From IMG/VR virus record IMGVR_UViG_3300037847_004763, positions 1-42,758 of that record: a stretch of 42,758 nt of DNA. The stretch is one strand, 5' to 3'. The stretch comes from a virus. A program made the position numbers and the translations under genes. Positions 11,889 through 29,595 of this stretch are shown here, piece after piece; the stretch's first letter is position 1, and the number at the start of each line of letters is the position of its first letter. Under the pieces are notes generated by a model. It made no database searches. It was given only the letters and a program-made list of their open reading frames with translations, and was not told where the DNA came from.

Positions 11889-12623
11889 CTATTCCTTTAT
11901 AACTTTGCAGGCTCTCTTGTAAAGAGTAAGGCGGTCTTCGATGCCGTTATATCCGCCGTTTAGCACACGAGTTACTTGATATACGTCAGTTCCTTCACAG
12001 ACTGCAGCCCAGTTGTTCTCTTCGATCCAGCAAACTGCGGATAGAAACGGGTACTGCTTTGCGACGTAGTCTGCGCCTTCTTCCATTACTTTGTCGTCGG
12101 CCATGCCGTTACGTTCCAGCCAGTTGCTGAAGCGTTGGTAGTTGTAGCGGCCGGTTAGTTGGATGCAACCACCGCCGAAAAAGATTTTGCCGTCGCCTGG
12201 TCCGTTGCCCAGGTCGCTGCGGTTGTCGTACATGCGGGTGAAGTAGTCGTCGTCGCCGAGTTCCTTCATCCAGCGGTAACGGCCGGTTTCGTGTGCTGTC
12301 TGAGAAATAAGGTGTCGGCGTTGTTGCACACTCGTCATGCCGGTGCTGTAGATGAGCTTGTTGAGGTCGCCCATAAACTTGTCGTCAAAATGATGAGGCT
12401 TCCAGCCTGAAATTTCTGCGACCTGTTCAGCACTGACGAGCCACCTGCCTTCTTTGGGTGCTACAGCAGTTGACCAAGTTTTGTACCACTCTTGGTCGCG
12501 GTCAAAGCAGTCGGGGCATAGCTGCAGAATCTTCTGCTCGAGTTCAAGCAAGCCGGCTGTTTGGTGCCCAAGCTTCTTGTAGTACCTGAACAGGTCAAGA
12601 AGTCGGATCTGTCTCGTGCTCAT
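11889..12623 (-). CDS. Endolysin, glycoside hydrolase family 19 (chitinase-like muramidase)
   Basis: 244 residues. The GH19 core is plain: QTAHETGRYRW with catalytic Glu 112, FFGGGCIQLTGRYNYQ at about 148-164 with the family signature GxIQLTGRxNY, then VTRVLNGGYNGIEDR near the end. The N-terminal ~60 residues (LLDLFRYYKKLGHQTAG) are a helical extension. It cleaves the beta-1,4 glycan of peptidoglycan at lysis. No signal peptide, so export depends on a holin; the small membrane proteins upstream (12867-13286) are candidates. Its first 29 bases overlap the end of the frameshift extension. Confidence 0.93.
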   Translation of the reverse strand: MSTRQIRLLDLFRYYKKLGHQTAGLLELEQKILQLCPDCFDRDQEWYKTWSTAVAPKEGRWLVSAEQVAEISGWKPHHFDDKFMGDLNKLIYSTGMTSVQQRRHLISQTAHETGRYRWMKELGDDDYFTRMYDNRSDLGNGPGDGKIFFGGGCIQLTGRYNYQRFSNWLERNGMADDKVMEEGADYVAKQYPFLSAVCWIEENNWAAVCEGTDVYQVTRVLNGGYNGIEDRLTLYKRACKVIKE

Positions 12624-13004
12624 CTAACCAGTGGTAGTGAATGCTTAGCGGCGGACCCAAACCAGTCGTATCCGTACCAGGGTGGTGCGTGACGATGGTG
12701 CGTGGTTTGTCTCCAGGTTGCGCGGCGTGCCAAGCATCAATCTCGGCGTCGATACGGGGCTTCAGCGCTGCGTGGAACTTGAAAGCCTGAGCGTGCTTTT
12801 TTAGGTGGTCGGTCCAGTGTTTATCACCAAACCGAACCAGCCAAACACCGTCTTCGGGTATGCCGCTTACTTTTTTGGGAACACGCGGGTCAGGATTTCC
12901 AGCACAATCTGAATGATGCTGTTGCTGCGAAGAGGCGACAACGCGATGATTTCAGATGCAGCGGCAAGGCCGATTGCGATCATTGCGGTGGTGACGGGAT
13001 CCAT
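12595..13004 (-). CDS. Probable -1 frameshift product: holin-like N-terminus plus 91-residue extension
   Basis: At the end of the 45-codon gene the zero frame reads CCA AAA AAG TAA (heptamer A_AAA_AAG at 12870-12876), the same slippery site as E. coli dnaX. A -1 slip gives a 136-residue protein whose extension starts VSGIPEDGVWLVRFGDKHW and runs to the TGA at 12595-12597. The extension frame has no ATG, GTG or TTG between its preceding stop (TGA near 12951) and residue 71, so it cannot be started normally. Yet it reads like a real protein (KPRIDAEIDAWHAAQPGDKP, then TGLGPPLSIHYHWLDE). I see no obvious stimulatory pseudoknot. Alternatives: a non-standard start (ATA at 12858-12860) or a decayed start codon. 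Confidence 0.6.
12867..13004 (-). CDS. Small holin-like membrane protein (45 aa)
   Basis: Found by translation. ATG at 13002-13004 (MDPVTTAMIAIGLAAASEIIAL), TAA at 12867-12869. Two hydrophobic helices (about 5-22 and 29-42) are joined by PLRSNS, with a basic end RVFPKK. Small MDP(V/L)TT...ASEII...KSNS proteins of this layout are familiar from cyanophage lysis regions, where they are taken as holins. It lies immediately ahead of the endolysin. Its last two codons form the slippery heptamer A_AAA_AAG followed directly by the stop, see the 12595-13004 entry. Confidence 0.75.
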   Translation of the reverse strand: MDPVTTAMIAIGLAAASEIIALSPLRSNSIIQIVLEILTRVFPKK

Positions 13005-13040: not shown

Positions 13041-13286
13041 TTAGCGCCGCGATTCAAGCACTTTTAGGCGTGCGTTATGATCCACCATCATTTCTAAGAC
13101 CATTTTGCGGTCGGTTTTCATTTCCTCGCGCATTTGACTTAGCTGCTTATTGATGTTTTCGGCTACTGTACTAAGCCTGACAATACTCTCTTTTGCTTTT
13201 GTATTATTTTCTATGTTGGCGAGCCAAGCCGTACCACCTAGTCCGAGACTGGTTGCCGCTAGTGCTGCTGCGATTTCAATTCTCAC
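13041..13286 (-). CDS. Small membrane-anchored coiled-coil protein of the lysis region (81 aa)
   Basis: It starts with GTG at 13286. An N-terminal hydrophobic segment (IAAALAATSLGLGGTAWLA, residues 4-22) would anchor it with most of the protein outside the bilayer. The rest is a charged heptad-like helix (VENINKQLSQMREEMKTDRKM...). One membrane helix plus a coiled coil resembles holin accessory or spanin-like proteins and tail-less bacteriophage lysis regulators. It lies directly upstream of the holin-like gene and endolysin, which supports a lysis role without proving it. Confidence 0.6.
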   Translation of the reverse strand: MRIEIAAALAATSLGLGGTAWLANIENNTKAKESIVRLSTVAENINKQLSQMREEMKTDRKMVLEMMVDHNARLKVLESRR

Positions 13287-24963: not shown

Positions 24964-25400
24964 CTACTGCTGATTGCTGCAGAAATAGGAAGCTCCCCAA
25001 CCATGGCCTGAGTCAGTACACGCCTAGGTGTTGTCACACCAACGGCGTCGATTGCGCTGGAAAGTACGACTTCGATTGTCTCTGCGTCGTAAGACATCCC
25101 AGTAACGATCCAGGTTTCTTGGGTGAGTCTTCTGGTGATTGATGTGAAATCAGAGTTCATTACGCATGTTTCGACTGTGACTGCGGCTTTGTCGGCAACC
25201 GCCTGTCGTACAGCGTTCATACTGATCTGGTTCGCCGATAGGACGATGGCGGCTTCGAGGTTGTCGCCGTTTCGGTTTTTTGCTGCGCCTTGGTAGTAGA
25301 ACGACAAGTACCCGTGGCCGTTAATCGAACCACCGATTTTGCCGTTCTGGTATTTGTCGCCTTCGACGTCGATGAATGTCGTTATTGCGGTGAGTGTCAT
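24960..25400 (-). CDS. Minor tail protein, lambda L-like (146 aa)
   Basis: Between the tape measure and the NlpC-like protein, the place of gpM/gpL in lambda. SINGHGYLSFYYQGAAKNRN, then LEAAIVLSANQISMNAVRQA, WIVTGMSYDAETIEVVLSSA and the end VLTQAMVGELPISAAI agree with the L/DUF1833-type group, whose C-termini often carry a (M/L)VG-PLP-like segment. The Cys residues needed for the lambda L iron-sulfur cluster are not evident (one Cys, CVMNSD). It probably joins tube and tip. Confidence 0.6.
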   Translation of the reverse strand: MTLTAITTFIDVEGDKYQNGKIGGSINGHGYLSFYYQGAAKNRNGDNLEAAIVLSANQISMNAVRQAVADKAAVTVETCVMNSDFTSITRRLTQETWIVTGMSYDAETIEVVLSSAIDAVGVTTPRRVLTQAMVGELPISAAISSR

Positions 25401-28400
25401 CGCATTCCGATCCGGCTACGTTGCGACCTGCTGTTTTGCAGTGATTTCATCGTATTCGACTGACCCATCTGCGCACCACGCTTTGCAGATATAGCGCCCA
25501 TTTCTCGGACTTGGTCGACTGTTGCGTACTCAACGCCGTTGATGACCGTGGTTTCCAGGCGGAATGTTGGGGTTGAGTCTGCGGTGTTCCCGCTGTTGTA
25601 GCGACTCATAAGATCACGGGATTCAGAGTTACTAAGAATCATTCCAGGGCGATCGGGCATAAATAGCTCAGGCCCGCGCTCACCGACGATGCTTACCCTA
25701 CCCATCGGTGGGCGGCCACCATCAGCGAAGAAACTCATCCCCATGGTGCTGGGAACTGACGCCTTTGGAATACTCCAGCCGCCTGGTGCTCCACCACCTC
25801 CAAGCAGCTCACCACCACCCATGCCGGCAAAGGCGCGGGCGATGCCGATGGCGATGTACTGCGCAATCATGGTTGCTGCTTGATCAATGAGCGCTTTGCC
25901 CATAGCTTTAAGCATGTCAGCAAATGCCTCTTCCGCTGACTTAGTTCCTTCAATAAGTCCCACCAAACCTTCAGTTAGGCCGTTGACGAAAGCGTTTACG
26001 GGACCTTGAACTAGTTCCAATGTTTGATTGAATTTAAGCTGAGCTTGTTCGGCTGCAGCAATTTGCGGCAACATTCTTTCGTAGACACCGCGCTGACGTT
26101 CCAGGAGTTTTATTTTGGCTGCGGCTTCTATTTGGGCATCCTCACTGCCGTCTTTTTCAAGGGCTTTTTGAATTTCTAGTTGATCATTTATTTTTTGTAT
26201 AGCGTTTGCATAGCGGTTTGCTTGTTTGGCTTCTAGTTGGTTTTGCTCGTCTAAGAAACGATCGCCAGTTGGTAAAGACAGGCCGGCTAGTTCTTGTCCC
26301 AAGCTGCGCTCTAAGTTGTCGATTTGCTGCCGTCCTTTAATGCCTGTAATTTCTTTTTCAAGTTCTAAGCGTTCTTCGTCCAGTTCTTTTAGTTGATACA
26401 AAATGCTAAATTCTTTGTCAAGGTTTTTAAGTTTGAGTTCTTTAATTCGTTGGTCTTCCGTACCAAGCTCGATTTCTTTACGCTTAAGCTGTAGTAGGTC
26501 ATCTAAGCGGTCCTTTTCAATGCCTAGTTTCTCAATTTTATTGGCCCCAATAGTAATAAGTTTGGTGTTTAGTTCGAACTCTTTTGCTTTCAAACCTGCG
26601 ATTGTTTTTTGGACTTTTGCTTCTTCATCAACACCCGCTTTTGGTGGTTTGTAGTTAGCTGCACGGTTACGAATAGCAGCAAGTTCTTTTTCATAAGTAA
26701 GTCTTGCATCCTCTAGTTCTTCGCGCAGAACACCAATCTTAATTTCGTCAATAGCGTACTGGTTGTATAACTGTTGTTCTTTGTTGATTCTGCGCTGGAA
26801 GGCTAGTTTTTTCTCTAAAGCAATGCGAGTCTCGTCATTAGCTTTAGCGTTGAGAAGTTCGATTTCAAGTTCAATGCGCTTTTCGGAAACTGTGCCTCGA
26901 ATCTGACGAAGCTTAATACCGTCAAATTCCGCAAGAGTAGCGCGGACCTTTTCTTCGCGCGCAGCTTCAGCGTTAAGTTTGATTTGTGCAGCAATAATTT
27001 CTTGGATAATCTTTTCTCGTTCCTTGACTTTTGCTAAAGGGTCAGTTCCTGTTCCGAAGCCGACGCCTGCTTGCTCAAAACGTTCAAAACGAGCTTGTTG
27101 TTCCGCATCACCAGAGTTACGAGCTTGGTTAATAAGATTGGCACGTCCCAGTTGGTCGGCTATGGCTTTGAATAGCCCAACGCTGTTGATGACCTGGGCG
27201 ACTGATGAAGCCATTAAGGTCATTGCCTTGGCAAATTCGTTGCCTAGGCGTGTGCTGTCTTCGCCGAATTCTTTGAGAGCGTCGACGCCCTCTTGACCAA
27301 TAAGGTCAGCCATTCTTTGGGTGGCTATTGAGAGGGCTAAAGCCTCGCGACCCGAATTCTCAAGACGCTCCACAAGAGAAGCAAAAGGAGTATTTGTTGC
27401 TCCAAGGGCTTCTACGAGCTTAGTAGTGTCGGCGGTGGCGGGATTAAGGGCTGCACCAAGTTCGCCGATACTTCGGATGTAGTCGTCGACTGCTTGTCCG
27501 ATTGCGCCGCCGACAATCTGACCCCCAAAGCCGCTACCTACAAACGATCCAGCGGCTGAACCAAGGACTGAACCCGCTCCGCCGCCAAAAAGTAACGGAA
27601 AACCAACGCCAAGAGCAATACTTTCTGCCCGTTTCTGCCTTTCTCTATCTGCTGCTTTTTGTTGATCAGCGAGTTTTTTAATTCTTTTTTGCTCAAGTCT
27701 GTATATAGCTGCATTCTGCTTGACTTTTAAAGAGTTGATACTCTTAGTAAAGTTTTGATCAAGGTTCCCAGCGAGTTTAGTAAGTCGTACTCTTTCTTTG
27801 TACGCAGCTACGCCTTTTTCATTTCCTGGACCAAAAACAGGTGATTTTAACTTTTGAGTGGATGCTACGGCTTCTTGAAGGCTGGCATTTACAATATCGA
27901 AGATTTTTGGAAGTTTATTTGCTTCGTTGGCTCCGTTTTTCAGGCCATTGACAAAATTAGCGACTTCTTGATTGGTGTAATCAAGGTCTTTCCCTAGTTG
28001 GTCACTAACTGACCGAATGCGCTTAATACCGCGAGTTGCAGCATCAAGCATTTCGCTGCTTGGAAGAGCCAGCGGCTGTTGATCAATGGCTACCTTGGGA
28101 CGTCGTGCCAGCTCCCTGGCTACTTTTTGTTGGTTGCGTCGAATGGACTTAGCAACAGGATCCCTAGCAGCAAAACCTGTGCCTGCACGAGAAGCACGGC
28201 TTTCTTCGACGTTTTGGCGGATTCGCTGTTGCTGGGCAGTTAGCTCGTCGTAAATCCGCTTCCGTGCGCGGAGTTCATTGTTTACATTCTTTTCTGCTTC
28301 AATTAGACGTACTGTCTCTTGTCTAAACTCTTCTGCAGTGCTGTCCATTTCATCTAAGGACTTTTTGGCTTCCTTGAGTTCTTGTTTAAGGAAGCTCAGT

Positions 28401-29032
28401 GACCCTGAACCTTTTGCAAGCTCAATAAGACCTTTTCTAGTTATCTCAAACTTCTCGTTTAAAGAATTAAATGCAACAAGACCGTCGGCAGTAACAGAAC
28501 TAACTAGATTTTTAAAGCTGTTTTTAAAACTAAAAATGTCCGCAGTGGCTTGCTTAATTGCAGGCGCAAACGCAAAAAGAGATGCAGTGGCAAGTCCGAT
28601 ACCTGCAGCAGTTGCCGGTGCAGATGAAGCAAAGTCAAGTAAAGCTGCGCCTAGTTTTCCTGCAGGACCAACAGCTTGCTCTAAAGAACCTCCAAAAGAA
28701 TTGAGGGCTGCAGTTACCTTTCCAAACCCTGGTCCTAAATTGTTAATACCTTGAAGCGCTTGGGCTAACTTTTCAGCACCGCCAGCACCTGCAGCAAGAG
28801 CTGTGCTAATACCGCCGATAGCAGCGGTCGGTTTGATTCGTTCAAGACTCCTACCGATTGCGTCAACACGTTTTTCAAAACCCTTTAATTCTCTTGTTCC
28901 TTTTGCAACAGCGCCGATCTCTACATTATTGGCAGTGTTTTGCAGTCCTTGAAGTTTGCGCTCAATCCTCTTTACAGCCTTATCTACTTCAGTTTCGACA
29001 AGCCTGACGATAATATCGGCGTTATATGCCAC
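25397..29032 (-). CDS. Tail tape measure protein (1,211 aa)
   Basis: Long, mostly helical, Lys/Glu/Ala-rich, with coiled-coil stretches (680-960, e.g. KRIELEIELLNAKANDETRI). A hydrophobic Gly/Ala-rich block at about 475-520 (LGVGFPLLFGGGAGSVLGSA) and a second hydrophobic region near 1045-1090 are the membrane-active segments usual in tape measures. The C-terminus has GRVSIVGERGPELFMPDRPG, the conserved GE(R/A)GPEL motif of the family. At about 0.15 nm per residue it predicts a tail near 180 nm, so a long-tailed siphovirus. It follows the G/GT chaperone genes as in lambda. Confidence 0.95.
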   Translation of the reverse strand: MAYNADIIVRLVETEVDKAVKRIERKLQGLQNTANNVEIGAVAKGTRELKGFEKRVDAIGRSLERIKPTAAIGGISTALAAGAGGAEKLAQALQGINNLGPGFGKVTAALNSFGGSLEQAVGPAGKLGAALLDFASSAPATAAGIGLATASLFAFAPAIKQATADIFSFKNSFKNLVSSVTADGLVAFNSLNEKFEITRKGLIELAKGSGSLSFLKQELKEAKKSLDEMDSTAEEFRQETVRLIEAEKNVNNELRARKRIYDELTAQQQRIRQNVEESRASRAGTGFAARDPVAKSIRRNQQKVARELARRPKVAIDQQPLALPSSEMLDAATRGIKRIRSVSDQLGKDLDYTNQEVANFVNGLKNGANEANKLPKIFDIVNASLQEAVASTQKLKSPVFGPGNEKGVAAYKERVRLTKLAGNLDQNFTKSINSLKVKQNAAIYRLEQKRIKKLADQQKAADRERQKRAESIALGVGFPLLFGGGAGSVLGSAAGSFVGSGFGGQIVGGAIGQAVDDYIRSIGELGAALNPATADTTKLVEALGATNTPFASLVERLENSGREALALSIATQRMADLIGQEGVDALKEFGEDSTRLGNEFAKAMTLMASSVAQVINSVGLFKAIADQLGRANLINQARNSGDAEQQARFERFEQAGVGFGTGTDPLAKVKEREKIIQEIIAAQIKLNAEAAREEKVRATLAEFDGIKLRQIRGTVSEKRIELEIELLNAKANDETRIALEKKLAFQRRINKEQQLYNQYAIDEIKIGVLREELEDARLTYEKELAAIRNRAANYKPPKAGVDEEAKVQKTIAGLKAKEFELNTKLITIGANKIEKLGIEKDRLDDLLQLKRKEIELGTEDQRIKELKLKNLDKEFSILYQLKELDEERLELEKEITGIKGRQQIDNLERSLGQELAGLSLPTGDRFLDEQNQLEAKQANRYANAIQKINDQLEIQKALEKDGSEDAQIEAAAKIKLLERQRGVYERMLPQIAAAEQAQLKFNQTLELVQGPVNAFVNGLTEGLVGLIEGTKSAEEAFADMLKAMGKALIDQAATMIAQYIAIGIARAFAGMGGGELLGGGGAPGGWSIPKASVPSTMGMSFFADGGRPPMGRVSIVGERGPELFMPDRPGMILSNSESRDLMSRYNSGNTADSTPTFRLETTVINGVEYATVDQVREMGAISAKRGAQMGQSNTMKSLQNSRSQRSRIGMR

Positions 29033-29062: not shown

Positions 29063-29595
29063 TTAGCGACGGCGTTTGGCCTTCTCCATCGCTTTTTCTT
29101 GGTCTTCGTTTAGTACAGAAAAGTAGGCGCTCCAGCCCAACAACTCCTCGGGAGTCATAGTGGACCGTACTTGGGAAAGACTCATGCCTAGTTCTTTGGC
29201 TACGCCGAACTGAAGCATGAGCCAGTTGTCTTTCCTTAGCTGAGCGCTCAGGATTTTGGGTCCATGTCGACGTTGTCGTCGTCGGTCAAAACGCCCAGCA
29301 TCAGTTGCTGCAAGTCTTTGTCTTTGACTTCGTGCTTAAGGACGTCGATTTCACCAGGGGAAAACATCTTGTTGCCGTTCTCGTCCTGTGCTTTAGCAAT
29401 CAGCAGTTGTAGTGCAAAAGCGTTGGCATCGTCAGACTTTGCATTCTTTTGAGCACGCTCGCGCTCTGCCATGGTCAGCGGCGTTACGTACATTTCGAAT
29501 GTCGTTCCATCCGAAAGCTCGACTTTTCTTTTGACTGGTTCGAGGTTGGCTGCCTTACGGAGTTTGTCGATTGCACGCAGATTGCTGGCGGGCAT
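29063..29595 (-). CDS. Tail assembly chaperone GT, made by -1 frameshift (177 aa)
   Basis: The zero frame ends GAC CCA AAA TCC TGA. The heptamer C_CCA_AAA (CCCAAAA, 29254-29260) allows a -1 slip, after which 63 more codons follow: ILSAQLRKDNWLMLQFGVAK, then SLSQVRSTMTPEELLGWSAY and the end KAMEKAKRRR, stopping at 29063-29065. LSxxxxxMTPEELxxWxAY is the standard T-domain of siphophage GT chaperones. As in lambda, G and GT coat the tape measure while T recruits tube subunits. Position between tube protein and tape measure, slippery site and T-domain all agree. Confidence 0.92.
29248..29595 (-). CDS. Tail assembly chaperone G (115 aa)
   Basis: MPASNLRAIDKLRKAANLEP, VELSDGTTFEMYVTPLTMAE, then NAFALQLLIAKAQDENGNKM and GVLTDDDNVDMDPKS. 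This is the common phage tail chaperone (G) type: an acidic alpha/beta protein that binds the tape measure, made in excess over the GT form. The stop is TGA at 29248-29250, just after the slippery CCCAAAA. Confidence 0.9.
   Translation of the reverse strand: MPASNLRAIDKLRKAANLEPVKRKVELSDGTTFEMYVTPLTMAERERAQKNAKSDDANAFALQLLIAKAQDENGNKMFSPGEIDVLKHEVKDKDLQQLMLGVLTDDDNVDMDPKS

Follow-up and report, generated by a model that had tools for sequence, protein, structure and literature searches.

We conclude that programmed -1 ribosomal frameshifting where a small holin-like gene ends is very probably the best explanation for the arrangement of reading frames at this locus, because a slippery heptamer, a stop codon close behind it, a -1 frame and an extension in that frame are present together among related phages and absent together. 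The window (the whole stretch of DNA analyzed, a virus record of 42,758 bases) has Synechococcus cyanophages as its nearest annotated relatives.

The holin-like ORF lies on the minus strand at 12867..13004, and its 0-frame product (13004..12867) is a 45-amino-acid protein with a basic C-terminus, MDPVTTAMIAIGLAAASEIIALSPLRSNSIIQIVLEILTRVFPKK. The 3' end of the ORF reads TTC CCA AAA AAG TAA, within which CCC_AAA_AAA_G (12870..12879, minus strand) holds two overlapping heptamers, C_CCA_AAA (12879..12873) and A_AAA_AAG (12876..12870). Both are in frame, and the 0-frame stop TAA (12867..12869, minus strand) is directly behind them. An earlier note on this DNA had pointed out A_AAA_AAG ahead of the TAA, which is confirmed at these positions, and had left the overlapping C_CCA_AAA unmentioned. 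The -1 frame extension (12595..12870, minus strand) consists of 91 codons (12870..12598) and a TGA (12597..12595). As that note had also stated, this frame has no ATG, GTG or TTG before codon 71 (a TTG at 12660), and in the window sequence none is present either among the 27 codons over which the -1 frame is open ahead of the extension. The ATA named there as a conceivable initiation site is present, at 12861 rather than near 12858.

In the mechanism we propose, a single start codon would give rise to two proteins, a 45-residue membrane protein and a longer fusion. Most ribosomes presumably terminate at the TAA and release the short, single-pass membrane protein, and some would slip one base back on C_CCA_AAA_AAG, by tandem re-pairing at either C_CCA_AAA or A_AAA_AAG, and would read 91 further codons to yield a membrane-anchored fusion. 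Slippage at either heptamer gives an identical junction (...FPKK-VSG) and a fusion of 136 amino acids. That ribosomes slip here in infected cells, and how often they do so, is something we infer from the sequence comparisons.

Conservation of the slip site and the extension among relatives

We compared 216 distinct holin-like junctions, taken from isolated phages, from IMG/VR contigs and from a small number of MAGs, 181 of which have the extension and 35 of which do not. Twelve viral contigs were matched directly by the extension as query, with -1 placement wherever the junction is intact, and the extension is in the -1 frame at all 181 extension-bearing junctions. Isolate genomes with this arrangement are those of KBS-S-2A, S-CBS1, S-CBS3, S-B28, 7B11-B, WH11-B and S-EIVl. 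In the isolate records, the extension is either unannotated or begun at an internal codon, which indicates that database annotation misses the frameshift. The arrangement, with both heptamer and extension, also occurs in a Planctomycetota-labelled MAG (JAPOKD010000005.1) with a holin-like protein that is 82% identical; this contig of a planctomycete bin probably comes from a phage, either misbinned or associated.

The earlier note had held that a slippery heptamer at the entry to a start-less frame is best explained by frameshifting, and the comparison bears this out: an in-frame X_XXY_YYZ heptamer is found at the end of the short ORF at 179 of the 181 extension-bearing junctions and in none of the 35 homologues without extension (14 clusters at 80% identity). 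The distance from heptamer to stop is 0, 1 or 2 codons in 31, 145 and 3 of these 179 junctions, respectively. A_AAA_AAG is the dominant type, with G_GGA_AAG and C_CCA_AAR heptamers also present, and G_GGA_AAG and C_CCA_AAG substitute for it in other clades; where AAG has changed to AGG, a CCCAAAA or GGGAAAA heptamer is left intact. The codon before AAA_AAG is of ten types (GCA, CCA, GGA, TCA, CAA, ACA, GAA, CGA, AGA and GTA), which means that the residue varies while the final A of the codon is constant. The flanks also differ from those of the window, for example at the junctions of cyanophage KBS-S-2A (CAA GCA AAA AAG AGC TGA) and Synechococcus phage S-CBS1 (AAG CAA AAA AAG GAC TGA). Thus, the conservation that the note had proposed looking for in relatives is found, with heptamer and -1 frame both kept while the surrounding codons and residues change.

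With residues fixed and synonymous codons sampled according to codon usage at these loci, a heptamer is expected in 3.2 +/- 1.7 of 25 cluster representatives and is observed in 24, where the expected value is a guide only since the null model assumes independent clusters and pools the codon usage of different phages. The gap between observed and expected heptamers does not depend on the exact null figure. The clade of L218 and L258 (11 sequences) provides a natural control. It keeps the residues KPKK, encodes them as CCA AAG AAA or CCA AAG AAG, and has neither heptamer nor extension. In 14 of the 35 homologues without extension, what follows in the -1 frame is the endolysin gene itself, often with an ATG or GTG located in the overlap or close to it (for example in L034, L035, L044 to L046, L084, L085 and L089). 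A homologue without heptamer or extension is encoded, unannotated, at ~1501-1638 in an ssDNA microvirus (Microviridae sp. SD_MC_44, MH572431.1), between the scaffold and replication genes.

Which of the two overlapping heptamers would be used in the window is a separate matter. In the clade to which the window belongs (n = 15), C_CCA_AAR is invariant and A_AAA_AAG is present in only 10 sequences. In the window the shift may therefore occur one codon upstream of the position originally favored.

The window is an IMG/VR virus record with a homopolymer at the site, as might be expected if a sequencing or assembly error, or decay of the gene, had introduced a one-base indel that split a formerly fused ORF. 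We give this explanation practically no weight, given that the arrangement recurs in isolates and at ~180 distinct junctions, some of which have no long homopolymer, and that no relative among those compared has both domains in one frame. Transcriptional slippage at the A run, which would make a -1 mRNA, draws on the A6 run present in most relatives. Such slippage generally requires longer homopolymer runs, and it is very improbable here because the GGGAAAG and CCCAAAG variants hold just three A residues and still retain the -1 extension. Moreover, the pattern that is conserved, X_XXY_YYZ, is that of ribosomal re-pairing.

A different possibility is termination-reinitiation, in which the extension would be a separate protein begun at a near-cognate codon (GTA, ATA, CTG or TTG) over the holin stop. 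The -1 frame and the 0-frame stop are in contact in every case, and overlapping start codons are frequent in this operon. Among 48 clusters, the 0-frame stop behind the heptamer is TGA in 31, TAG in 10 and TAA in 7, and the -1 codon overlapping it is CTG in 28, GTA in 11, CTA in 4, TTA in 2, TTG in 2 and GTG in 1. The CTG and TTG codons would suit reinitiation. However, where the stop is TAG or TAA, the -1 codon that overlaps it is GTA, CTA or TTA (17 of the 48 clusters). These are not start codons by known rules, so that no normal start is possible there. The few TTG codons, which arise from GGT TGA or GAT TGA, sit behind an intact heptamer. No ATG overlaps the stop in any extension-bearing cluster representative, whereas ATGA does occur (L084, L085 and L089) when the endolysin is the next gene. 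Reinitiation also predicts no conservation of the heptamer, which is in fact near-universal and is missing exactly where the extension is missing. We therefore regard reinitiation as an improbable general explanation.

Two extension-bearing junctions lack the heptamer. At one of these (L308; Cyanobium sp. N5-Cardenillas, draft genome, NZ_JAGQBG010000028.1), the extension is opened in the -1 frame by a GTG that overlaps the stop (GTGA), which speaks for reinitiation. Because the heptamer is absent there, reinitiation may have taken the place of slipping, and this locus is possibly a switch from one mode to the other, a single case in 181. It is also the one exception, again in 181, to the finding that no relative supplies the -1 frame with an ATG or GTG start of its own, and the earlier note had named such a start as something that would count against frameshifting. 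The other junction (L039; IMGVR_UViG_3300032241_000422) reads CCT TCA AAG AAC TAG and keeps the -1 extension with no standard heptamer.

Stimulatory elements and decoding

The heptamer A_AAA_AAG is identical to that of E. coli dnaX, where it is decoded by lysine tRNA. dnaX carries an upstream Shine-Dalgarno sequence and a downstream stem-loop, and at the holin-like junction, in contrast, we found neither of these stimulators to be conserved. A Shine-Dalgarno-like element upstream of the heptamer is present in 3 of 34 sequences; a control position has one in 13 of 34, so that the element is not enriched. RNAalifold on the window clade gave 11 downstream pairs with no double-sided change, in a clade so conserved that a structure may nevertheless exist there, and local folding z-scores are mildly negative and not specific to the site. 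The short distance between slip site and stop is conserved and may itself contribute to shifting. The two systems also differ in outcome: the shifted product of dnaX is the shorter form, and that of the holin-like gene would be the longer one.

Regarding decoding, PMC5009743 counts A_AAA_AAG, the dnaX site, with the heptamers at which E. coli ribosomes shift most readily, and states that one lysine tRNA reads both AAA and AAG in about half of bacteria. In a draft and incomplete Cyanobium genome, an Rfam tRNA search recovered 36 tRNAs, with tRNA-Lys(UUU) as the only lysine type, which is suggestive; a search by strict pattern recovered no host lysine tRNA.

The extension and the lysis module

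Protein-level selection on the extension is indicated by a median dN/dS of 0.17 over 564 moderately diverged pairs (not independent of each other, and excluding the part that overlaps the endolysin), which is purifying selection. Conserved positions include W47, Q51, P52 and W81. An AlphaFold model, for which the alignment rows were the window and related-locus sequences only, predicts with low confidence (pLDDT 68, pTM 0.31) a long helix at residues 19 to 49 and two short strands. The extension has no match among Pfam or PDB sequences. Partial matches to PHROG 3316 were found for 4 of 68 extensions, in the C-terminal half only; the extension of the window has no match to it, and no match over the whole length (~130 residues) was found. 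Profile comparison by hhalign nevertheless relates the C-terminal half of the extension to S-CAM7 gp214 (95.1% probability, E 3e-8, 45 columns), a protein of 128 residues encoded by a single ORF. The cyanomyovirus proteins of this family (phrog_3316; S-CAM7 gp214 and ACG-2014f) have a hydrophobic N-terminal segment, the same C-terminal half and the ending ...LGG.M.[IL].[AS]PW, and the gene for S-CAM7 gp214 adjoins a lysozyme-like gene. Homologues of gp214 occur in 54 records, nearly all of them S-CAM7 or ACG-2014f. They differ from the protein proposed here in being continuous ORFs, in having another N-terminal sequence and in that a short form is not evident. S-CAM7 gp214 joins a probable membrane segment to an extension-type domain with no frameshift, which supports the fusion as the functional form.

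The holin-like protein has one predicted transmembrane segment, at about residues 6 to 22, called from hydropathy alone (17-residue maximum of 1.94 at residue 6). It belongs with PHROG 22542 (E 1.2e-10) and PHROG 15106, both annotated as unknown function, and has no match to a characterized holin family in Pfam or PHROG. The very small size, single predicted transmembrane segment, basic C-terminus and adjacency to the endolysin are features shared with class III (single-transmembrane-domain) holins, although there is no sequence match to a characterized holin. From its size, one hydrophobic segment, basic tail and adjoining endolysin, we infer, with less confidence than the frameshift itself, that the short 45-residue form is a holin.

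The adjoining gene (11889..12623, minus strand) encodes a GH19-like endolysin of 244 amino acids that matches PHROG 181, endolysin, at E 1.3e-33; its Pfam Glyco_hydro_19 match is weak (E 0.029) and below the cut-off. An endolysin neighbor is common to most relatives. In Autographiviridae cyanophages, the homologue instead has genes of the tail-fiber side on one flank and, on the other, an endonuclease gene or that of the terminase small subunit, a position like that of the T7 holin gene 17.5. Upstream of the holin-like gene in the window is an 81-amino-acid protein (13041..13286, minus strand; PHROG 26178, annotated as unknown, E 7.6e-12) that has a hydrophobic segment at its N-terminus as well as a charged helix. 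A match at E 0.047 to the Rz-like spanin PHROG 739 hints that it is possibly an Rz-like spanin.

The ATG of the endolysin lies inside the extension frame, and the tail of the extension overlaps the endolysin gene by 29 nt. Because such an overlap with the next start is found in most clades, coupling of the shift to endolysin translation is possible, since shifted ribosomes would cross the endolysin start codon. Taken further, this could mean that the shift mainly controls the downstream gene, with shifted ribosomes translating the endolysin start in a coupling like that of the MS2 lysis gene and the extension being incidental. The contig L110 (IMGVR_UViG_3300021368_001381), in which the extension frame leads into that of the endolysin, would fit such control. 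However, the purifying selection on the extension, the related single-ORF protein of cyanomyoviruses, and the retention of the frameshift in phages with no endolysin neighbor (7B11-B, WH11-B and S-B28, which have an endonuclease or the terminase small subunit there, and S-EIVl) make it unlikely that downstream control is the main role. The L110 arrangement, seen in one contig, is continuous and stop-free over 321 codons, and a shift there would yield a holin-extension-endolysin polyprotein.

Under the frameshifting model, then, the long form would be a minor protein of the lysis module that modulates the short form or anchors a soluble helical domain to the membrane, a role that we propose with less confidence than the shift. 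That the frameshift has a role in regulating lysis at all is a serious possibility that we place a little short of an even chance. We advance only tentatively the broader idea that many cyanophages of different morphotypes set lysis by one two-frame gene, which encodes a short pore-former and a frameshifted long form. It is similarly speculative, taken as a whole, that the anchored extension restrains or directs the pore, that slipping feeds ribosomes to the endolysin, and that slip frequency serves as the lysis clock.

Relation to known systems

PMC3483164, PMC7881722 and PMC5009743 describe frameshifted tail chaperones and capsid genes of tailed phages, and the text of these papers that was searched makes no mention of holins. 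Programmed -1 shifts in tailed phages are known mainly from the chaperones, and from a few capsid genes. A search of the open-licence literature found no earlier report of a frameshifted holin in tailed phages; priority is uncertain, with subscription papers and preprints outside the scope of that search. The comparative evidence places probable -1 frameshifting in a lysis-module membrane protein of at least two kinds of cyanophage, siphovirus-like and Autographiviridae, and of environmental relatives. This could give a phage a way to set how much pore-forming protein it makes relative to the modified form, and the extension adds a conserved, uncharacterized domain to the cyanophage lysis module. 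The MS2 lysis gene offers a parallel in which a lysis-related expression step likewise depends on the frame or the termination of ribosomes that translate a gene upstream. There, however, a separate lysis protein is made via reinitiation, and here a fused protein is proposed.

A close mechanistic parallel is the lambda G/GT tail chaperone of tailed phages, in which ribosomes slip to -1 shortly before a small ORF finishes, on the same classes of heptamer (e.g., G_GGA_AAG), and make a minor product with a longer C-terminus. It differs in that the chaperone lies beside the tape measure gene, whereas the gene described here encodes a membrane protein beside the endolysin. We rejected the 45-codon gene as a candidate for the G/GT chaperone of this virus on location, since the chaperone ORF is found elsewhere, at 29595..29248. 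This G-like ORF (29248..29595, minus strand) precedes the tape measure gene (25397..29032) and ends GAC CCA AAA TCC TGA, with a C_CCA_AAA slip site at 29260..29254 and a T-like frame following at -1. A G/GT-type frameshift at C_CCA_AAA is thus likely in the chaperone gene of the window as well, which would be a second likely use of this heptamer in the same genome.
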